Shown here: in pieces, positions 35,616-46,055 of the stretch | Layout of the letters: each line of letters starts with the position of its first letter | Numbering within the stretch: position 1 is the stretch's first letter | Assembly: GCF_018736065.1 (NCBI RefSeq) | Contig: NZ_CP076128.1 | Location: 2,108,001 to 2,172,000 of the forward strand | Length of the DNA: 64,000 bases | DNA from: Flammeovirga kamogawensis | GTDB taxonomy: Bacteria; Bacteroidota; Bacteroidia; Cytophagales; Flammeovirgaceae | Direction of reading: 5' to 3' | Notes under the pieces: generated by a model | Told to the model about the DNA's origin: nothing | Database searches by the model: none | What the model saw: only the letters and a program-made list of their open reading frames with translations | Made by a program: the position numbers and the translations under genes

Positions 35616-36830
35616 ATGATGATTACAAAAATATCTTGGCGAAATGTTTGGAGAAACAAAATGAGAAGTGGCATTCTCATCGCCTCAATTGCGGTAGGTT
35701 TATTAGGTGGTATTTTTACAATGGCCCTAATAAATGGCATGATGGAGTCTAAGATTCAAGAATCTTTGATTACAGAGTTAGCACATGTTCAAATTCATAA
35801 AAATGGCTTTGAAGTTAATAATAGTTTTAGCGATTCTATAAGAAATTTTCAAGCAATAGTAAAAGTAGCAGAGAGTGATTCTTTAACAAAAGGATGCTCT
35901 CCTAGAGTTGTTGTACAAGGCATGGCCTCTTCTGCCAACGATAGTCAAGGGATAAAAATTATAGGCATAAACCCTACGAAAGAAGTTACAGTTACAGATT
36001 TACCAAAATTCTTAATTAAAGGAGATTACTTTAAAGGGAAAAGAAAAAATCAGATTGTAATAGGTGAAGAGCTTGCTAAAAAACTGAAAGTAAAAATCCG
36101 TTCTAAAATTGTTATTGCTTATATGGGGCCTGACAAAGAAATGGTAAACACTGCTTATAGAGTGGCTGGTATTTTTGCTACTAGTTCTCCAGATTTTGAT
36201 AAGGGTGTTGTTTTTACCCAATCAAAAGATATGTGGAAAAACGCAGGCCAAGAATTTATTCATGAAATTGCCTTAACATCAATCGATGGTGGTTCTTCTC
36301 CAGAAGGGTTAAGAGATCATTTAGAAAGTGACATTCATAATAAACAATTAAATATTCAGACTTGGAGGCAAATTGTTCCAGAATTAAGTGCTCTTGCTGA
36401 AACTGGAAATACAAATAGTTATATTATTTTAGGTATCATCTTATTTGCCTTAGGGTTTGGTATCTTAAATTCTATGACGATGGCAATATGGGAAAGATCA
36501 AGAGAACTTGGTGTTTTAATGGCTGTAGGTTTAGAAAGATCTAAGGTATTTCTGATGATTGTTCTAGAAACAATTTACCTTTCTTTAATAGGTAGTAGTA
36601 TTGGAGGTCTTACTTCTATTGCATTAATAGCCTATTACGGAAAACATGGTTTAAAGTATTCTGAAAGTACAATTGCTGGGTTTAGTAATATCGTTTACCC
36701 TATTCTTTCGGCAGAATCATTCATACCATTATTCTTTATGGTATTATTTACAGCTATTGTAGCTGCATTACCTCCTGCTTTTAAAGCCATTAAGTTAAAC
36801 CCTGCCGAGGCAGTTAGATACAAAGGATAA
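35616..36830 (+). CDS. ABC transporter permease (LolC/E-, FtsX-like), second copy
   Basis: 404 residues, same plan as the preceding gene: MITKISWRNVWRNKMR start, periplasmic domain, and FGILNSMTMAIWERSRELGVLMAVGLERSK near the C-terminus. Two adjacent ATG codons (35616, 35619); the second aligns better with the start of the first permease. It lies 12 bp after the first copy. Sequence identity between the two is moderate, so they are an old duplication forming a heterodimer. Confidence 0.92.
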   Translation: MMITKISWRNVWRNKMRSGILIASIAVGLLGGIFTMALINGMMESKIQESLITELAHVQIHKNGFEVNNSFSDSIRNFQAIVKVAESDSLTKGCSPRVVVQGMASSANDSQGIKIIGINPTKEVTVTDLPKFLIKGDYFKGKRKNQIVIGEELAKKLKVKIRSKIVIAYMGPDKEMVNTAYRVAGIFATSSPDFDKGVVFTQSKDMWKNAGQEFIHEIALTSIDGGSSPEGLRDHLESDIHNKQLNIQTWRQIVPELSALAETGNTNSYIILGIILFALGFGILNSMTMAIWERSRELGVLMAVGLERSKVFLMIVLETIYLSLIGSSIGGLTSIALIAYYGKHGLKYSESTIAGFSNIVYPILSAESFIPLFFMVLFTAIVAALPPAFKAIKLNPAEAVRYKG

Positions 36831-36875
36831 TAGCATTGGCCATTTATTCCTTTTCAAATTCTAAATAATAAAGAG

Positions 36876-37547
36876 ATGATAGAAATTAAAGACTTAGTCA
36901 AAACATATAACGAAAATACAATTCCTGTACATGCCTTAAACCATGTAAACCTGGAAATTAAAGAAGGTGAATTTACAGCTGTTGTTGGTCCTTCCGGATG
37001 TGGCAAAACAACTTTTCTTAATATTTTAGGAGGATTAGATAAGCCAACATCAGGTAATATTTTTATTGATGGAACAAACCTACATGACCGTTCTTCTTCT
37101 GAAATGATTACTTACAGAAGAGATAATATTGGCTTTGTTTTTCAAGATTACTCTTTGATGCCAGTACTTACTGCAGAGGAGAATGTTGAATTTATTATGG
37201 AGCTTCAAGGACGTTCTAAAAAGGAAAGAAAAGCCCGTTCTCAAGAACTATTAAATGCAGTTGGTATTGCAGATAAAGGCAATCAATTTCCTACTAAATT
37301 ATCAGGAGGTCAGCAACAAAGAGTTGCTGTTGCTAGAGCGTTAGCTTCTAAACCAAAACTCATTTTGGCAGATGAGCCTACGGCAAACTTAGATTCTAAA
37401 GCCACTTCTGATCTATTGGATATTATGAGGCACCTTAATGAAAAAGAAAATATCACTTTTGTTATTGCCACTCATGATCAACGTGTAATGGACAGAGCAA
37501 AACGTGTTATCCAATTTGATGACGGTAAAATCATTGATGCAAAATAA
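36876..37547 (+). CDS. ABC transporter ATP-binding protein (LolD-like)
   Basis: 223 residues, with Walker A GPSGCGKTT at about 38-46, signature LSGGQQQRVAVARAL near 140, Walker B LILADEPTANLDS, and the D-loop and H-switch ATHDQR. The family is the MacB/LolD clade and powers the two upstream permeases. ATG at 36876. A hairpin follows at 37553, before the barrel gene, so the last gene may be expressed at a different level. Confidence 0.96.
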   Translation: MIEIKDLVKTYNENTIPVHALNHVNLEIKEGEFTAVVGPSGCGKTTFLNILGGLDKPTSGNIFIDGTNLHDRSSSEMITYRRDNIGFVFQDYSLMPVLTAEENVEFIMELQGRSKKERKARSQELLNAVGIADKGNQFPTKLSGGQQQRVAVARALASKPKLILADEPTANLDSKATSDLLDIMRHLNEKENITFVIATHDQRVMDRAKRVIQFDDGKIIDAK

Positions 37548-37552
37548 TTCTA

Positions 37553-37586
37553 GAAGGGCGTAGTTCATCGCTACGCCTTATTTTTT
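37553..37586 (+). terminator. Hairpin inside operon, before the barrel gene
   Basis: AAGGGCGTAG and CTACGCCTT form a GC-rich stem with one bulged G, followed by TTATTTTTT. It would act as terminator or attenuator between the ATPase and outer-membrane protein genes. Confidence 0.7.
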
Positions 37587-37594
37587 CTATCTAC

Positions 37595-38776
37595 ATGAAT
37601 AAGCAATTACTCCTCCTCCTTTCATTACTTTCATTATCTATTTTCAGTTATGCACAAGAAGATAATGAAGAAGAAAAAACATCTAAGTTTAAAGAGAACT
37701 TTGTTGTGTCAGGCTATTTAAAGTATATGCAGACAATAAACCTGCCTAAAGATTTAGACGATGAATGGTATATCGATAATTTATTCCATAATCGTTTAAA
37801 CTTTAAATATTATGCATCAGATAAAATTACACTTGCATTAGAGGGCAGAAACAGAATGCTTTACGGAGCTAGTCCTCAATATATCCCAAATTATGATCAA
37901 GAATTTGCCTCTCAAGAACAATACGCATTCAACATGTCTTACAACTGGGCAGCTGGTAATTCTTATGTTATTAATTCTCAAATTGATCGTTTTTACTTTG
38001 ATTATTCTGCCGGAGATTGGCAAGTGAGAGTAGGTAGACAACGTATTAATTGGGGTGTTTCTATGGTATGGAATCCGAATGATTTATTTAATACCTATTC
38101 GTTTTTTGATTTTGATTACGAAGAGCGACCAGGTGCAGATGCCATTTTAATAAGAAACTATCTTGGTCCTATGAGTTCTATCGAAGTAGTTTTCTCTCCA
38201 TCTAATGAGTTTGAATACTACAATGCTGCTGCATTATTTAAGACTAACTTATGGCAATACGATTTCCAATTTCTAGCAGGTTATGTTAGAGAAAATTATA
38301 ACCTTGGTTGGGGTTGGGAAGGTCAAATAGGAGGAGCTGGTTTTAAAGGAGAAGGCACCTATTTTTACCCAGACTATTCTGGTGAAGACCCGTCTGTTGT
38401 AATGGATATTTCGTTAGATTATACATTCACAAACTCCATTTATTTACACACAGAAACTATTTATAATAGTGCAGGAGCTACCTCTCCTATTGGTGCAATT
38501 GATCCAACTTTCCAGCTTACGCCTAAAACATTAAGTTTATCACGATTTGCATTTTTTAATGAGATCCAATACCAATTAACTCCACTCACAAGATTAGGCG
38601 TTAATAGCATTGTAAACAGTAATGATAAATCTTATTATATAGGAGGCAATGCAACTACATCTTTAAGTGATAATTTTGAAATTCTTGTATTCGGAATGTT
38701 CTTCTTTGGAGATGAAGATTCTCAATATGGAGATGGTGGTTCACAGATAAATTGGCGTCTTAAGTGGAGCTTCTGA
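37595..38776 (+). CDS. Outer-membrane beta-barrel protein, DUF1302-like
   Basis: 393 residues with signal peptide MNKQLLLLLSLLSLSIFSYAQ and alternating amphipathic strands through to a C-terminal aromatic (INWRLKWSF), a typical outer-membrane insertion signal. The RQRINWGVSMVWNPNDLF stretch near 148-165 resembles the conserved strands of DUF1302-type proteins found with Lol-like and MMPL exporters. Probable outer-membrane terminus of the transport pathway encoded upstream. ATG at 37595. Confidence 0.85.
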   Translation: MNKQLLLLLSLLSLSIFSYAQEDNEEEKTSKFKENFVVSGYLKYMQTINLPKDLDDEWYIDNLFHNRLNFKYYASDKITLALEGRNRMLYGASPQYIPNYDQEFASQEQYAFNMSYNWAAGNSYVINSQIDRFYFDYSAGDWQVRVGRQRINWGVSMVWNPNDLFNTYSFFDFDYEERPGADAILIRNYLGPMSSIEVVFSPSNEFEYYNAAALFKTNLWQYDFQFLAGYVRENYNLGWGWEGQIGGAGFKGEGTYFYPDYSGEDPSVVMDISLDYTFTNSIYLHTETIYNSAGATSPIGAIDPTFQLTPKTLSLSRFAFFNEIQYQLTPLTRLGVNSIVNSNDKSYYIGGNATTSLSDNFEILVFGMFFFGDEDSQYGDGGSQINWRLKWSF

Positions 38777-38841: not shown

Positions 38842-39366
38842 ATGACTAATTTGCTATCAAAAATTAAAGCTAAATTTCCTTCTTATACATCCACTGGTAC
38901 AATACTATTTTCTTCGTTTTTTATTTTAACCTCTTCATTACTTACTATAGATTTTTTTCTTCCTAAACAATTTGATATTGCTTATGTATATGATGTTGAA
39001 TTTTCTGGTAATGATGGAATATTGGTTCGTTCAGACAATACAGCAAATTTTGTAATAGAATCCAATCAGGTGTTATTAGATGACATAGGTGTTGAGCTTT
39101 ATGTATATAAAACGCCAATTTTTGGCAGAATAGATCCAATAGTTTCAAAAAGTGATCATACCACATTTAATGTTTGCTATAACTTAAGAAGTACATATTT
39201 CATTCCATGCCTGTTAACACTACTCTTGTCTGTATTAATGATTTACATTAAACCTTCTAAAGGTGAGGATATTTCTTTTCAAGGGATTTTAGGAGCCATA
39301 ATTATTATACTTCAAATTGTAATAATAATGCTCAATTTTAATGCTTTACTTCTACTAGGCACTTAG
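38842..39366 (+). CDS. Hypothetical membrane protein, 174 aa
   Basis: One N-terminal hydrophobic segment (about 18-38), an extracytoplasmic middle part of some 75 residues with two Cys (near 111 and 119), then two membrane helices (about 116-132 and 147-172). No family recognised. It lies 65 bp after the barrel gene and 11 bp before the LytTR repeat pair, so it may be a tail-end gene of the Lol-like operon or independent. ATG at 38842. Confidence 0.75.
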   Translation: MTNLLSKIKAKFPSYTSTGTILFSSFFILTSSLLTIDFFLPKQFDIAYVYDVEFSGNDGILVRSDNTANFVIESNQVLLDDIGVELYVYKTPIFGRIDPIVSKSDHTTFNVCYNLRSTYFIPCLLTLLLSVLMIYIKPSKGEDISFQGILGAIIIILQIVIIMLNFNALLLLGT

Positions 39367-39377
39367 ATAAGGTGAAT

Positions 39378-39407
39378 TACAATTCAAAGTACCGTTTCTA
39401 CAATTCA
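39378..39407 (+). promoter_or_regulatory. LytTR-type direct-repeat site upstream of kinase gene
   Basis: TACAATTCA (39378-39386) and TACAATTCA (39399-39407) stand 21 bp apart start to start, with a 12-nt spacer. This is the geometry of LytTR-family sites such as the AgrA site (9-12-9). The same pair occurs at 41428-41457. It lies about 90 bp before the kinase ATG, suggesting autoregulation. Confidence 0.8.
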
Positions 39408-39492
39408 AATTTAATTACAACAACTTACAGGAAGTGAACGACAATGCGTATTAGTTTTATCGTATATTAATAGTATAAAAAATAAAATTATT

Positions 39493-40554
39493 ATGCCTAC
39501 AATATTTTCAAATAGATCTCCAAAATATCAATTCCTACTTAGGTTAACAATTGTCTATTTAATTCAATTATTTATAAAAGCTTTCGATCATAGCTTTGGA
39601 GGAGTATTTCCACTGACAATAAGAGGAGCTTCATTTACCATTATATTCACCTCTTATTGGTTACTATGTTGGTATTTTGCAGAATTTATTCAAAAGAAAG
39701 TAGCGACTTTTAAAACTCCTTTCGAAATCATTGTTCATTTTCTAAATGGCTTTTTTGTAGGTATTTCCTCAAATATTATTTATATGTTGGGCGATACCTA
39801 TATATTTAATAATGGGCATCTTTGGGTAGATATTAGGTTTTATAATCCTGAATTAGTAACAGGGCTCACCATTTTTTATATGCTGATCTATATTGTTTAT
39901 AGGAATGTAGATAAAGAAATGACAATCAAAGAGAATCAAATCAACATTGAAACTATAGAGAAAGAAATGTTTAAGTCTCAATATATGGCTTTAAAAGCAC
40001 AGATTGAACCACATTTCCTATTTAATAGCCTTAGTGTTTTATCAAGCTTGGTACATACAGATCAAAAATTAGCATCTGATTTTATCATTAAGTTATCAAA
40101 GACTTTACGATATATTATTGAGCAAAATAAACGAGTAACTGTTCCTTTAGAAGAAGAGCTTAAAATTGTTGAAGATTACTTCTTCTTATTAAAAACCAGA
40201 TTTGGTGATAGTATTCAATTGAATATCAATCTTTCTGATGATTTATTACAAACCACTATTTTACCTCCGGCTAGCATCCAAATATTAATAGAAAACGCTG
40301 TTAAACACAACAAATTTTCGATAAAGAAGCCTTTAGTGATAGACATCATTTCTGACGGTAATATTATTCAGGTTTGTAGTACTTATGACAAAAAAGAGCT
40401 CGACGAAAACTCTACAGGAATGGGGCTATCAAACATCAATAAAAGGTATCAATTGATAGCAAATCAAAATATTACCATCGAAAAAAATAAGACTTTTTTT
40501 ATAGTTAGTTTACCAGCCTTATCTCAAATCAATCATGAAGATTTTAATCATTGA
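39493..40554 (+). CDS. LytS/YehU-type sensor histidine kinase
   Basis: 353 residues. Four N-terminal membrane helices (about 14-32, 44-65, 77-100 and 121-137) are followed by a short coiled stretch, the His_kinase motif QIEPHFLFNSL with phospho-acceptor His174, and an HATPase domain (ILIENAVKHNKF near 267, GMGLSNINKRY near 317). No extracytoplasmic sensor domain is present, so the signal is probably sensed within the membrane. The stop overlaps the start of the response regulator by 20 bp, so translation is coupled. ATG at 39493. Confidence 0.93.
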   Translation: MPTIFSNRSPKYQFLLRLTIVYLIQLFIKAFDHSFGGVFPLTIRGASFTIIFTSYWLLCWYFAEFIQKKVATFKTPFEIIVHFLNGFFVGISSNIIYMLGDTYIFNNGHLWVDIRFYNPELVTGLTIFYMLIYIVYRNVDKEMTIKENQINIETIEKEMFKSQYMALKAQIEPHFLFNSLSVLSSLVHTDQKLASDFIIKLSKTLRYIIEQNKRVTVPLEEELKIVEDYFFLLKTRFGDSIQLNINLSDDLLQTTILPPASIQILIENAVKHNKFSIKKPLVIDIISDGNIIQVCSTYDKKELDENSTGMGLSNINKRYQLIANQNITIEKNKTFFIVSLPALSQINHEDFNH

Positions 40555-41290
40555 GGATGAACTTCCTACAGCCAATTACTTAGAAACGTTGATTCTTCAA
40601 TACAACAGCTCATTTGAAATTGTAGCAAAACTTTCATCTGTAGAAGACAGTATAGATTGGTTTAAAACAAATATACAGCCCGATCTAATATTTCAAGATA
40701 TTTCTTTAAGTGACGGTAACTGTTTCGAAATTTACAAACAAGTAATGGTGCAAAGTCCGTTAATTTTCACAACTGCATATAGTGAATATGCACTAGAATC
40801 TTTTCAACTTAATAGTATAGATTACATTGTAAAACCATACGATTTTGAAGATATTAAAAGAGTTTTAAATAAATTTTCTCTTTATAGTAACTTATTTATT
40901 ACTTCTTCTCCTTCTTCGATGAATGAAATACAAGAAAATAACGAGAAGAAAATCAAAAAGCGGTTTTTAGTTTCCATTGGAGAGCAATTAAAAACAGTAA
41001 ATACAGAAGAAATAGCTTTTATTAGATTTGATGAAGGACTCACATTTCTACACCTTTATGATGGTAAAAAATATCCAATAGATAAAAGTATTTCAACACT
41101 TGAATCTCAGTTAGCTACTTCTCATTTTTTCAGGATTAACCGAAAATATATAATTAAAATTGATGCTATAAAAAAAATAAACACTTGGTTTAATTCAAGA
41201 TTACAAATTGAAACAGACCCACCTACTCCAGAGGAACTTATAGTGAGTAGGGAAAGAGTAAAAGCATTTAAAGATTGGTTAGACAGCTAA
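40535..41290 (+). CDS. LytTR-family response regulator
   Basis: 251 residues: receiver domain (about 1-120) with acidic pocket EDE near 7-9, phospho-acceptor Asp55 (IFQDISL), Thr/Ala switch TTAYS and Lys KPYD near 103. The LytTR DNA-binding domain (about 145-250) includes TEEIAFIRFDEG and HFFRINRKYIIKIDAI. LytTR domains bind paired 9-bp direct repeats, and such pairs are seen at 39378 and 41428. Overlaps the kinase gene by 20 bp. A terminator follows. Confidence 0.94.
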   Translation: MKILIIEDELPTANYLETLILQYNSSFEIVAKLSSVEDSIDWFKTNIQPDLIFQDISLSDGNCFEIYKQVMVQSPLIFTTAYSEYALESFQLNSIDYIVKPYDFEDIKRVLNKFSLYSNLFITSSPSSMNEIQENNEKKIKKRFLVSIGEQLKTVNTEEIAFIRFDEGLTFLHLYDGKKYPIDKSISTLESQLATSHFFRINRKYIIKIDAIKKINTWFNSRLQIETDPPTPEELIVSRERVKAFKDWLDS

Positions 41291-41301
41291 TTGATTGTAT
41301 T

Positions 41302-41334
41302 AGTCACATGGAAATTTTCATGTGACTTTTTGTT
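41302..41334 (+). terminator. Intrinsic terminator after the LytTR regulator
   Basis: AGTCACATG and CATGTGACT around GAAATTTT, followed by TTTTTG. Confidence 0.85.
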
Positions 41335-41648
41335 TTTAAACACCTCTAAAATAATACTGTAATTACCTGGAAATTATTTAATAAAATATCTATCATTGAT
41401 CCTTTAATTATCAGGTAGTTTTTTGATTACAATTCAGAAGCAAATTTCTACAATTCAATTTAAAAAATAACAACTGAACATAAATAGCATTCTTAGGGCA
41501 CTACACTTGGCGTATAAATAAAATGTCGAAAGGATAAAAAGTAACAAACTTTTAAAAGAAAAAACAACGTGTTCATCTCTTGTCTTTTAAAACTTGATAC
41601 CATGAAACCTTCATTTAATATTTATTTATAATTCACATTTCAAAACTT
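41335..41648. other. 314-bp leader region of barrel gene
   Basis: Holds the LytTR repeat pair at 41428-41457; the rest, about 190 bp up to the ATG, has only very short ORFs. It gives the barrel gene a long regulated upstream region. Confidence 0.5.
41428..41457 (+). promoter_or_regulatory. LytTR-type direct-repeat site upstream of barrel gene
   Basis: TACAATTCA at 41428-41436 and 41449-41457, period 21 bp, 12-nt spacer ending TTTC as at 39378. Its presence upstream of the gene immediately downstream of the regulator suggests a direct target. Confidence 0.8.
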
Positions 41649-42224
41649 ATGAAAAAGTCAATTTTATTTATCGTCTTCAATTTTATGTTCATTTCTTCAG
41701 CATTATTTGCTCAAGACAAAACAATTAACATTGGTGTAAAAGGTAGTGTAGGTATGTCAGGGTTCTCAAACAATCTAGGACTCTCTTCAGATACAAGACA
41801 ATCTTGGGAAGGTGGTCTAATGTTAAGAGCTAACATACCAAATTTACCAATCTATGTTCAAACAGAACTTCTGTATACAAATACTGGAGGAACATTTGAA
41901 TTTGATAATGCATCTCAAGATCTAGTGCTTAACAAAGTTGAAGTTCCAATTCTTTTAGGTGGAAAAATGGCTATTGGTAATATAACAGCTAGAGCATACG
42001 GTGGTATAGTTGCACAACAAATTGTCAAAGATAATTTCAGCGATATTAGTAGTGATTTAAATGCTAATGAGTTTAGCTGGGGATGGCAAGTTGGTTTAGG
42101 TGTAGACATCAAAAAGTTTACTGTAGATGCTAAATATCAACAAAGTGCTAATCTTGTTACAAACCCAGGTGTTGATCTACAATCACAACAGTTTATTGTA
42201 AGTGTAGGTTACTTTATCTGGTAA
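41649..42224 (+). CDS. Porin-family outer-membrane beta-barrel protein
   Basis: 191 residues with signal peptide MKKSILFIVFNFMFISSALFAQ and the strand pattern of small eight-stranded OprF/OmpX-like barrels (IGVKGSVGMSGFSNNLG, WEGGLMLRANIP, FIVSVGYFIW), with a C-terminal aromatic (W). Such proteins are outer-membrane and often responsive to envelope stress. It is probably controlled by the adjacent LytTR system through the direct repeats at 41428. Monocistronic with a bidirectional terminator behind. Confidence 0.88.
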   Translation: MKKSILFIVFNFMFISSALFAQDKTINIGVKGSVGMSGFSNNLGLSSDTRQSWEGGLMLRANIPNLPIYVQTELLYTNTGGTFEFDNASQDLVLNKVEVPILLGGKMAIGNITARAYGGIVAQQIVKDNFSDISSDLNANEFSWGWQVGLGVDIKKFTVDAKYQQSANLVTNPGVDLQSQQFIVSVGYFIW

Positions 42225-42320: not shown

Positions 42321-43751
42321 TCAATAAACTAATTCTCGGTTCTTTTTTTTCTGTTTTTTCACTACTTTTTTGGTGCTTATATACATCCAAAATCCTAATG
42401 AGCTTACTATAAAATTACCAAGAGCAAATAATAACAATATTGTATCTCTTACCCCTTTTCCTAAAAAGTCTAGTAGATGATATTTATGAAAATAGGCAAA
42501 TATAAAACCAGAGAAAGCCGCTTTATCATCAATTATTGCACCTACAAAACCTGAAGTTGTGTCTATATACCATCGAGGATTTCCATCATAAGAAAATTGA
42601 ACTTTTTGTACTGGCAATAGCTTATTTATAAAACCATATTCATTTTCAAATCTTTTGATTTCAGCAACACTTTTTACAGCAATTAGTCCACTAAATTGTT
42701 TTGCTAAACTCACTGCATAAATGCTATCTCCGCCTATTAGTTCTGAACCCGAAAAAACATCAAAATATTTTTTTATAATATCACGACCTTGTTTATAATG
42801 AAATTGACAATAGACCTTTCCTTCTATTCTAACAGGTTGATGGTTCATCCTGTTTTTATCAATCATATTAGTATTAAAAGTCATTTCATCAATAGTAAAA
42901 GTAGTTTCTGATGCAAAAATTGCTTTATCTATTGCTGTATATTTTGGTAGCATATGCATAAAAGCACTCATTGCAAAAAGTAACAATGTAAAAGACAAAC
43001 CAATACCCAATATTCTATGCAAACGTCTTTGCCAAGGCACTCTTGATTTATTTTGACGTATATACGTTTTTCTAAACTTAGTATAAACCAAAATACCTGT
43101 TACTCCTGCAAAAAAAGTAATGAGCACAAAAACACTTAGAATTACTAACCGAAACGTTTGATTAAAATCTAAGAATGTCCAACTATGTGCGTATAGAAAA
43201 AATGTTTGAAAGGCACTTCTGATAGAGTTAGTGGCATACGTCATTTTATCAGAATTTACATCAATAAATACCCTTAAACCATCCATTCTCCTGTATTGAA
43301 CTTTATAAACAGGTAGTATTCTTGCAATCTTTACATACTCATTAGAAAATGATTCTTGAGTAGTAATAGATCGGATTTTACTAGCATCTTCATCTGAATA
43401 CAACCCTGCCAAATAAGAAGCATATTGTATATCTCCATCTTTTAATCTATCTCCATTTGTGGCATTTATATAAATATTATTACCTGCTATTTTAAACTGA
43501 TAATAAAGCGATGAATCATAATTAATAAACCGATAAGATTGTATTGTAGCCCAATTATTCCGCACCATTATTTCGGCTACAGACAATATCGTTTTATCTG
43601 TATTTTTTATATTCTGATTTACAATTATACGTTGGTTGACTTTAGGTTTTAAGTTGGACATTAAAGGATGCATTACACCACTTAATGTCCATGCTAGAAG
43701 TGGAAAAAGTGCAACTAAACTCAATTTCCTATGTATTTTATATAAACTCAT
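42321..43751 (-). CDS. PepSY-associated membrane protein
   Basis: 476 residues with four membrane helices (N-terminal HRKLSLVALFPLLAWTLSGVMH, then about 205-225, 250-270 and 435-460) and two large extracytoplasmic parts resembling PepSY domains. PepSY-TM proteins are often encoded next to ferric-siderophore or metal receptors and are thought to reduce metal at the inner membrane, with His residues in helices as haem or metal ligands (His6, His28, HRILG near 245). Here it follows the TonB receptor by 6 bp in one operon. Confidence 0.85.
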   Translation of the reverse strand: MSLYKIHRKLSLVALFPLLAWTLSGVMHPLMSNLKPKVNQRIIVNQNIKNTDKTILSVAEIMVRNNWATIQSYRFINYDSSLYYQFKIAGNNIYINATNGDRLKDGDIQYASYLAGLYSDEDASKIRSITTQESFSNEYVKIARILPVYKVQYRRMDGLRVFIDVNSDKMTYATNSIRSAFQTFFLYAHSWTFLDFNQTFRLVILSVFVLITFFAGVTGILVYTKFRKTYIRQNKSRVPWQRRLHRILGIGLSFTLLLFAMSAFMHMLPKYTAIDKAIFASETTFTIDEMTFNTNMIDKNRMNHQPVRIEGKVYCQFHYKQGRDIIKKYFDVFSGSELIGGDSIYAVSLAKQFSGLIAVKSVAEIKRFENEYGFINKLLPVQKVQFSYDGNPRWYIDTTSGFVGAIIDDKAAFSGFIFAYFHKYHLLDFLGKGVRDTILLLFALGNFIVSSLGFWMYISTKKVVKKQKKKNRELVY

Positions 43752-43757
43752 ACTCTT

Positions 43758-46055
43758 TTATTTTTGACTTAAAGTATAACCTACCCCAAACTGAAAAGTA
43801 CGTGGCGAACCTAAAGAATAATTTTCTCCCCAAGCAGATTTAGACACTCTAGAAGCATACAATTCATCTGTTAAATTCATGACATTTACCCATGTATCAA
43901 AACCTTTAAACTGGTAACCAAAACGTAAGTTTAAAAGGTGATATCCCTCGTATTTTTTTGTGTTCTGATTATCCATATAATAGGCACTCACTTTCTGAAA
44001 CTCTACCGAAGTTCTAAACCCTTTTAAAAATTCTGGTTTAAAAGTTAATTCCATATTCGCAATCCAATTGGGAGCATTCGCCATTGTGTTTCCAGAAAAA
44101 TCTTCTTTACCTGTATCAAACTGATCAAATGTATGGCTTGCATAGGTCCCCCCTATTCTTACAAAAACCTGAGAAATTGGCTTCAAATGTAAAGCAGCTT
44201 CTACTCCTTCATGCCTTGTAGACCCTGCATTTTCATTGAGATAAGATCCGTCATCTTGTACTACTGAGATTATTTCATTTTCACCTCTCATGTAATAGTA
44301 TGCTGTTTCAACATAGCCTAATCCTTTAGGTAAAGAATACCAAGTACCTGCTTCGTAGTTTGTGTAATAAGAAGGTTCTAACGATGGCACTTTAACTCCT
44401 CTATATAATTCCGAAACTTGAGGAGGCATAAAACCTACACTATAATTTGCATAAAACCCTAAATTATTTTGCATTGTATAAGTAGCTCCAAGTCTAGGTG
44501 TTATTGCATTAAAATAATTAATAGAATTTGGTGCACCCGAAAAAGCAGTTTCTTCTAAATTATTACTGTAATCGTACTTAAAATGATCTGAACGAATACC
44601 TGCTGTTATAAATAGTCTATCTATTGGATTTACCTCTACTTGTGCATACAAGCCTGTGTTTAATAAATTAGTTTGGTAATCTGTCAAAACAGAATCTGTG
44701 GTAGAATAGCCTATATACTTTCCTCTTTCATCTCTATCAACATCAATATAATTTGCCCAAAAAGTTGTAGGACTATAATCAATACTTGCACCAATTCTAA
44801 TTGTTGTATTAATTGATGGTATTTTTTGATTATGTTGAACTACTGTACCATAACTCTGAAAAGAGCTCTCGTTAACTTCTCCTTTTGCACTATTCGGGTT
44901 AGTCCAATCATTTTTAATTCTATAACTAGGAATCTGCCCCATTTTATTCTTTCTGTAAAAAACTTTCGCTGTGGTCTCACTATTCTTATTCCATGTTTTA
45001 TCAATAGTTAGCGTAGATCTCCATAATTCTATTTCTCTTTTTGTGAAGTTATGAAGTGAAGTAAAATCTTTATCATAAAATGAGGTACTATCCAATGAAG
45101 ATCCCATATCAGAATAATATTTCATATAAGTTGTCTTCGATGAAAATTTTAAACTTTCTGTCAACTTATAACTTACTATTGCCGAAATAATTGATTTATT
45201 AAAATCACTATGGTCCAAATAACCATTTTCTCTTTTTGCAGAATAACCTCCAACACTAACACCTAATTTCCCATTATCTGTTGAGCTTTCTACATTAGCA
45301 TCAATTCTTCTATATCCATAAGAATCTCCTCTTAATTGTACTTTTGCCATTGGAACAACAGAAGGTTTTCTTGTAATAACATTGACCGCACCTCCAATTG
45401 CTTCCGATCCATATAAAGCAGATGCAGGACCTCTAATCACTTCAATATTCTGAGCCATTGTCATGTTCATCTCATTTAAAGCATTATGATTAAAAATACC
45501 TGTTGGACGAATAGGTAGGCCATCTTCTAAATAAAGAAATAGACTTTTTGTAGATAAAGGTTGACGAATAGCCATCATGTGTTGCTCACTACCTAAATCT
45601 GCCATTAAAACACCTGGCACTTTATTTATCACTTGTTCTAAAGATTGAGGTTTAGCCTCTTCTAACATTGTTGTTCCAATAGATGTAATTGCCATTGGAG
45701 CTTCTTCCCTTTTTTGAGCCGCTCTGCTCGCAGAAACTACTACTTGATTTAAAACATAATCATCTTGTTTTAATGTAATCATTGATTTTAAATCATTTGC
45801 TACACATGAAAAAGTGGTATAGCCAAGCATTTTAATTTCTATAATATCTAAAGCGTTTGCAGTTAGACTATAATTTCCACTCTTATCAGAAACTGTATAG
45901 GTACTTGTTGTTTGATTAATTATTATAGCTCCAACTAATGGATCTTTTGATAAATCATCTTTTATATTTCCTGAAAAATTTAAAATTTGGGCATGAAGAG
46001 AAGTTATGCTCAATACTAGAAAAAGAGCATTTAATATATGCGTTTTCATTAACAT
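43758..46055 (-). CDS. TonB-dependent outer-membrane receptor
   Basis: 765 residues from the first ATG (46055); a second ATG two codons in gives the better signal peptide (MKTHILNALFLVLSITSLHAQ). A carboxypeptidase-regulatory-like domain (about 24-95) precedes the plug (about 105-235, with VIRGPASALYGSEAIGGAVNVIT) and a 22-strand barrel ending in FQFGVGYTLSQK. It imports a scarce ligand driven by TonB-ExbBD. The partners (small Cys protein, PepSY protein) suggest a metal or siderophore substrate. Substrate not deducible. Confidence 0.93.
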   Translation of the reverse strand: MLMKTHILNALFLVLSITSLHAQILNFSGNIKDDLSKDPLVGAIIINQTTSTYTVSDKSGNYSLTANALDIIEIKMLGYTTFSCVANDLKSMITLKQDDYVLNQVVVSASRAAQKREEAPMAITSIGTTMLEEAKPQSLEQVINKVPGVLMADLGSEQHMMAIRQPLSTKSLFLYLEDGLPIRPTGIFNHNALNEMNMTMAQNIEVIRGPASALYGSEAIGGAVNVITRKPSVVPMAKVQLRGDSYGYRRIDANVESSTDNGKLGVSVGGYSAKRENGYLDHSDFNKSIISAIVSYKLTESLKFSSKTTYMKYYSDMGSSLDSTSFYDKDFTSLHNFTKREIELWRSTLTIDKTWNKNSETTAKVFYRKNKMGQIPSYRIKNDWTNPNSAKGEVNESSFQSYGTVVQHNQKIPSINTTIRIGASIDYSPTTFWANYIDVDRDERGKYIGYSTTDSVLTDYQTNLLNTGLYAQVEVNPIDRLFITAGIRSDHFKYDYSNNLEETAFSGAPNSINYFNAITPRLGATYTMQNNLGFYANYSVGFMPPQVSELYRGVKVPSLEPSYYTNYEAGTWYSLPKGLGYVETAYYYMRGENEIISVVQDDGSYLNENAGSTRHEGVEAALHLKPISQVFVRIGGTYASHTFDQFDTGKEDFSGNTMANAPNWIANMELTFKPEFLKGFRTSVEFQKVSAYYMDNQNTKKYEGYHLLNLRFGYQFKGFDTWVNVMNLTDELYASRVSKSAWGENYSLGSPRTFQFGVGYTLSQK

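Follow-up and report, generated by a model that had tools for sequence, protein, structure and literature searches.

This analysis concerns a 64,000-nucleotide (nt) stretch of the Flammeovirga kamogawensis genome (contig NZ_CP076128.1 of assembly GCF_018736065.1, positions 2,108,001 to 2,172,000; the whole stretch is called the window). Here genes for a sensor kinase, a LytTR response regulator and an outer-membrane beta-barrel protein follow one another on the plus strand, and arrays of 9-base-pair (bp) direct repeats precede both the kinase gene and the barrel gene (Table 1). The source genome (6,968,008 bases in 4 contigs) was compared with those of its relatives, nine genus genomes being considered in all; G000 denotes the window's species.

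The kinase has hydrophobic N-terminal stretches, judged by eye, and is presumed to be membrane-bound. The start of the regulator gene overlaps the end of the kinase gene, and the encoded protein matches the receiver (PF00072, 3.9e-11) and LytTR (PF04397, 1.5e-21) families, each above cut-off. Asp55 (D55), the phospho-acceptor of the receiver, is unchanged in all ten aligned regulators. The best NCBIfam model is LytR (114 of 375 bits), and the BtsR model scores 74 of 246 bits, both under the cut-offs of the models. A first-pass annotation, made from the sequence, had described the gene behind the regulator as porin-like; the predicted product is a small 8-stranded barrel and not a classical porin. 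AlphaFold2, run on the nine orthologues, predicts a helix at the N-terminus and eight strands (mean predicted local distance difference test, pLDDT, 82; predicted template modelling score, pTM, 0.75), and the nearest solved folds include OmpA, OprG, OmpW, OmpX and NspA (template modelling scores, TM-scores, of 0.40-0.57 on query). A paralogue of the barrel gene lies elsewhere in the same genome (G000:C1:4209911-4210477).

Table 1. Coordinates of the locus within the window; R1, R2 and R3 are half-sites in order toward the promoter.
Feature	Position	Strand	Detail
R1, distal half-site TACAATTCA, kinase promoter	39378..39386	+	copy at same place in 9/9 genus genomes
R2, middle half-site TACAATTCA, kinase promoter	39399..39407	+	12 nt past R1
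R3, promoter-proximal half-site AACAACTTA, kinase promoter	39419..39427	+	11 nt past R2
-7-like element TATATTAA, kinase promoter	39463..39470	+	35 nt past R3
LytS-type sensor kinase, His_kinase PF06580	39493..40554	+	PF06580 match 1.6e-24
Response regulator, receiver and LytTR DNA-binding domain	40535..41290	+	domain matches
Terminator-like hairpin and T-tract behind regulator, before second array	41302..41337	+	terminator search, window alone
R1 of second array, barrel-gene promoter	41428..41436	+	
R2 of second array	41449..41457	+	
R3 of second array, AACAACTGA	41469..41477	+	
-7-like element TATAAATA, barrel promoter	41513..41520	+	35 nt past second-array R3; departs from TAnnTTTG
Outer-membrane beta-barrel protein (OMP_b-brl), N-terminal helix and 8 predicted strands	41649..42224	+	

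The exact 9-bp repeats with 12-nt spacers that the first-pass annotation reported at 39378/39399 and 41428/41449 are present on the plus strand. The pair that it read as a binding code is real; the operator looks triple, and R3 (39419-39427 and 41469-41477) had been missed. The full layout is 9-12-9-11-9. Successive half-sites start 21 and then 20 bp apart, and the three copies therefore occupy about one face of the DNA. A whole-genome scan for the pair, a check proposed in that annotation, found TACAATTCA-N12-TACAATTCA exactly at 39378-39407 and 41428-41457 alone; a first-order Markov model of the window predicts about 0.0025 exact pairs, and the 9-mer density in the window with the array copies removed predicts 0.02. 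Allowing up to three mismatches gave 35 places (2 exact, 3 with two mismatches and 30 with three) against 15 for a reversed control; thus loose matches mean little and exact ones much. Within the window, TACAATTCA occurs nine times on the plus strand, four of them in the arrays, and never on the minus strand.

Comparison of the kinase and barrel promoters in the window's species gives an identity of 0.96 over the half-sites, 0.48 over the spacers, 0.25 over the upstream flank and 0.35 over the downstream part. The second array may be an old copy that selection has preserved, or it may have been assembled convergently. The region 39300-41700 had no match in a plasmid collection. Weak letters resembling a fourth half-site occur at 39440-39448 and at the same place in other kinase arrays, 21 nt past R3. 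This position averages 4.7 of 9 matches over 11 arrays and overlaps the -33 place, and a fourth site is hinted at, not claimed.

The order kinase, regulator, barrel is kept in all nine genus genomes. The sequence further upstream of the locus varies between species groups, and an array still precedes the kinase in 9/9. When a triple of TACAATTCA, spaced by 12 and then 11 nt, was scanned against the kinase and barrel upstreams of these genomes, the array was the best place in every kinase upstream (3-6 mismatches of 27; runner-up 9-12). The window's species and G004 have perfect copies at R1 and R2 and an R3 that matches 6 of 9, and R3 is perfect in G001 and G003; the R3 of the kinase array, weak in the window's species, reads TACAATTCA, TACGATTCA or GACAATTCA elsewhere. 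Mean matches over 11 arrays are 7.7 (R1), 8.0 (R2) and 7.2 (R3) of 9, with other offsets within 80 nt averaging 2.75 (maximum 5.1), and five representative arrays give 7.6, 7.4 and 7.4 (maximum 4.8 at other offsets); the half-site positions were picked by the scan, hence these means are fitted and the evidence lies in the gap to the next best places. Mean pairwise identity among arrays is 0.80 in the half-sites, 0.45 in the spacers and 0.38-0.41 in the flanks. Neither the TTTC spacer ends nor the AATTTAA-type flank singled out by the first-pass annotation is conserved across the genus. Its appeal to LytTR half-site geometry fared better, with 9-bp direct repeats conserved in nine genomes and falling within the 10-13 bp spacing at which, in the portion of the source available, LytTR regulators are described as binding paired 9-bp direct repeats near promoters (PMC11347149).

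These repeats look private to this regulator and locus. A relaxed pair, TACRRYTYA-N12-TACRRYTYA, had eight matches in the nine genus genomes, all at the locus (control 2). A degenerate triple had ten matches among 194 genomes from the order, all at the locus in eight genus genomes, and none in the other 186; the reversed control had none. The ninth genus genome, G002, lies outside that sample, and its array was seen in the genus scan. The pattern was derived from these very sites, and its absence elsewhere is the sole test. The R2-R3-type pair alone had 15 places in the nine genomes (control 3), 11 at the locus and four elsewhere, each of the four in a single genome. Seven off-locus pair matches were inspected (three from the genome scan and these four), and five fall inside reading frames. 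We rejected a wider regulon: the degenerate triple with up to three mismatches had 39 matches in the nine genus genomes, including the 11 arrays, and its reversed control had 46. Thus far, the regulator appears dedicated to this locus.

Downstream of R3, a -7-like element stands at 35 nt in eight arrays and at 34 nt in three. It is a strict TAnnTTTG in seven of the 11, at the same place in the seven other genus genomes (TATATTTG, TACCTTTG or TACTTTTG); TATATTAA and TATAAATA were let into the search by hand. The consensus at -33 is TTTG, and the corresponding place in the 11 arrays reads GACA, AACA, TTCT, TTCA or TCTG. The expected place of a -33 element lies 11-12 nt past the end of R3. R3 ends 34-35 nt before the -7-like element, and the 9-12-9 pair alone ends 54-55 nt before it. 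Two Bacteroides LRS-like operons, as printed in the available part of their description, have repeats followed by 11 bp, a 4-nt element, 19 bp and TATCTTTG, that is, 34 nt (PMC6193735); thus R3, not R2, is at the usual place.

The gap between regulator and barrel differs among the species. It measures 95-119 nt in seven of the nine genomes, where it holds no array and the barrel gene has none of its own (best triple-scan place 10-13 mismatches). The gaps of the window's species (361 nt) and G004 (317 nt) alone contain a second full array (3 mismatches) with its own -7-like element. A hairpin similar to the terminator-like one in the window is visible in the fold of the G004 gap, and the first 90 nt of the gap fold at -15.6 and -19.4 in these two species. 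The gaps of G001, G008 and G003 (L037, L038 and L039) also show a compound stem, outer GCATA...TATGC type and inner GCC...GGC, which looks conserved with changed letters in the three species and is a possible RNA element in the barrel mRNA leader. An Rfam search of six loci returned nothing at gathering scores.

On the arrays observed directly, with their conservation, spacing, uniqueness and gene order, we base the following scheme. A signal sensed by the LytS-type kinase would lead to phosphorylation of the regulator, whose LytTR domains would bind R1-R2-R3 just upstream of a Bacteroidota -33/-7 type promoter; the three-part array is most likely the binding place of this regulator. Once bound, the regulator would presumably activate rather than repress, so that both the kinase-regulator operon (positive self-control) and the gene for the outer-membrane barrel would be transcribed more strongly. 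Where the barrel gene stands directly behind the regulator, as in most genomes of the genus, the operon promoter probably serves it too, by read-through. The window's species and G004 have a terminator-like hairpin between the two genes; there, the second triple operator would provide the barrel gene with its own regulated promoter. We consider it likely overall that this LytS/LytTR system uses R1-R2-R3 as the operator of its regulator, autoregulates and drives one outer-membrane target. The self-control loop already proposed in the first-pass annotation is probable from conservation in nine genomes; so is the barrel gene as a target, although its own array is missing in seven of them. The locus would then be a tidy case of regulatory rewiring, in which the target keeps the same regulator and transcription shifts from the operon to its own copied operator.

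Several observations weigh against this interpretation. R3 matches only 6 of 9 letters in the window's own species, the -7-like elements depart from TAnnTTTG in four of the 11 arrays (window's species and G004), and TTTG occurs at the -33 place in none of the 11. Six of the seven short gaps fold into hairpins too (-7.2 to -18.0 over the first 90 nt, compared with -5.0 in G002). The G001 hairpin, which has a T-run and folds at -18.0, matches in strength those of the two species that have a second array; read-through is therefore doubtful at least in G001. The closest regulator found outside the genus (G012, 57% identity) has neither the array nor a barrel neighbour. Finally, no clear repeat pair was seen upstream of 11 other LytTR genes of the window's genome (11 of 12; L118 was omitted because its operon runs off the sequence examined) or of the barrel paralogue, and visible repeats are therefore not a rule within this genome; with 200 Markov samples each, the best p there was 0.015, against 0.005 for the kinase upstream, both uncorrected.

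The arrays could also be bound by the regulator as a repressor, with activation of the system releasing it, as CO releases CoxC; the kinase operon and the barrel gene would then be under negative feedback. CoxC provides a precedent, being described in the available part of the source as a LytTR repressor with a three-repeat operator, but its operator overlaps the -35 box, and most LytTR regulators bind upstream of -35 and activate (PMC11347149). Here the spacing between R3 and the -33 place, and a -33 place that never reads TTTG, as would be expected of an activator-dependent promoter, make repression unlikely. Less probable still is that the plain 9-12-9 pair is the whole operator and R3 a chance likeness. 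The perfect R1 and R2 and the poorer R3 of the window's species would fit such a pair, but across the genus R3 nearly equals R1 (the two means at fitted positions quoted above, with no other offset above 5.1) and is the strongest copy in G001 and G003; moreover, counted from R2, the -7-like element would lie 20 nt farther off than it does in the published Bacteroides operons and in 13 of the 19 pairs from other loci described below. The window's genome has 13 LytTR matches, and the owner of the arrays might be a different regulator, with this one just a neighbour. We regard this as very improbable, given that the arrays sit solely beside this regulator in all nine genus genomes having it, with no excess over control elsewhere.

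Genomes in the genus have 12-21 LytTR matches each. We surveyed two sets of LytTR loci from the Bacteroidota, which may overlap in taxa. Set 1 comprises 73 of 80 LytTR loci (L227-L233, partial or weak matches, were omitted), and one step kept 62 of the 73. Set 2 comprises 80 regions from 34 genomes of the phylum, taken in E-value order among the matches listed; it omits the window's genome and seven other rows that were taken out manually because they lay close to contig starts, were adjacent or closely related copies, or ranked low within their genome. In both, intergenic 9-mer pairs with at least 8 matches, including at least 3 G/C matches, were counted by period. Set 1 has 24 pairs at 21 bp in 21 loci (69.6 kb), against a mean of 4.35 and a maximum of 8 at the 31 other periods from 13 to 44, and set 2 has 23 in 18 loci (62.0 kb; other periods mean 3.55, maximum 7). 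Twenty arbitrary 20-kb regions from 12 set-2 genomes (53.7 kb) gave 7 at 21 bp (others mean 3.58, maximum 10); this is twice the control's own mean, and part of the excess may therefore be general.

For 27 of the 47 period-21 pairs, the next start codon on the same strand lies 79-143 nt downstream of the beginning of the pair, a distance counted in these pairs with no control. A third copy follows at +41 in none, at +42 and +43 in three each and at -21 in five, and triple arrays as a rule elsewhere were rejected, with 0-5 of 47 per offset. Half-site letters vary between loci (GACAATTCA, GTCCRYTTC, CCGTTTCAC, TTCACCGA and others). The frame xxCxxYT, chosen after looking, fits 14/24 pairs in set 1 against 21/135 at other periods, and 5/23 against 25/110 in set 2; because it is enriched in set 1 and not in set 2, one phylum-wide half-site sequence is not claimed. 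Of the 19 xxCxxYT pairs, 13 have a TAnnTTTG, with no more than one mismatch, 33-36 nt beyond the second half-site, and the remaining offsets between 0 and 79 together hold 8 such matches; the 13 include close relatives (two Tenacibaculum, two Prevotellaceae). Six set-1 pairs stand right behind the regulator and before a gene with a signal-peptide-like start, judged by eye (L184, L201, L204, L205, L206 and L223).

We put forward, as a proposal that may equally prove right or wrong, a Bacteroidota LytTR grammar of regulator-specific 9-bp direct repeats exactly 21 bp apart, placed 34-35 nt before TAnnTTTG and, at some loci, immediately following the regulator and preceding an exported-protein gene. 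Many LytTR systems would then be dedicated, self-identifying switches of one envelope gene, and within the genus the repeats would have been extended to a triple and duplicated when the target was cut off from the operon. If this grammar holds, the targets of many LytTR systems could be inferred from their sequences and then tested individually. Separately, near-identical TTCACCGA-type 21-bp pairs occur in four genomes (L234:771, L245:748, L255:1328 and L256:747), and in three of these loci the following genes resemble one another at the start, as if encoding the same small membrane protein, which suggests another conserved LytTR-linked regulon in the phylum.

Further genes surround the locus. 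Upstream of the kinase (window 35616-38776) lie a LolC/E-like permease and a LolD-like ATPase, both under NCBIfam cut-offs, and a 393-aa protein that has no Pfam or NCBIfam match and reads barrel-like; its last codons stand immediately before the kinase upstream in G001, G003 and G008 (by eye). At 42321-46055, a gene for a PepSY_TM protein adjoins a TonB-dependent-receptor-like gene on the minus strand, the latter judged from its translation; the two are perhaps an uptake pair. In another genus of the family, G012:C1:700110-702236 (L114) carries three tandem barrel paralogues on a different contig from the nearest regulator orthologue.

AgrA, ComE and LytR are examples of LytTR response regulators with paired 9-bp direct repeats. 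The E. coli systems BtsSR and YpdAB, in which a LytS-type kinase and a LytTR regulator act on few targets, resemble the locus in both respects; their targets are inner-membrane transporters, and that proposed here is an outer-membrane barrel instead. A literature search, which left most subscription papers outside its reach, found no account of this locus or of operators of LytTR kinase-regulator operons in relatives of this genome, nothing for LytTR with Flammeovirga or for LytTR response regulators with Bacteroidetes and outer membrane protein, and no account of LytTR targets in this part of the phylum.

As far as the sources could be consulted, three more groups of known systems come close. 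The regulator shares with LytTR response regulators in general the receiver, the LytTR domain and 9-bp direct repeats 10-13 bp apart (PMC11347149), but it differs in having three half-sites with 12- and 11-nt spacers, a Bacteroidota-type -7 element and no further targets seen. LRS operons offer a similar promoter layout: their repeats lie about 10-11 bp upstream of -35/-33, and published work describes how these systems, Bacteroides examples included, activate their own expression through repeats placed immediately before the promoter (PMC6193735). TATCTTTG follows the repeats of the Bacteroides operons by 34 nt, a distance found from R3 to the -7-like element in three of the 11 arrays here, with 35 nt in eight. 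Unlike the locus, with its kinase and its receiver carrying the Asp, LRS regulators have no receiver and are partnered by a membrane inhibitor, not a kinase (PMC6193735). RcoM1 and CoxC have three direct repeats as the LytTR operator, as is proposed here; their repeats are of 8 bp, of the TTCNNGCA type and spaced 12-13 bp, whereas those here are of 9 bp with spacers of 12 and 11 nt, and they unite sensor and LytTR domain in one protein, where this regulator has a receiver instead, and CoxC represses (PMC11347149). Thus, autoregulation through LytTR direct repeats and triple LytTR operators are already published. What seems new is a triple, 12/11-spaced operator of a LytS/LytTR system that appears dedicated to one outer-membrane barrel, together with a traceable second copy.
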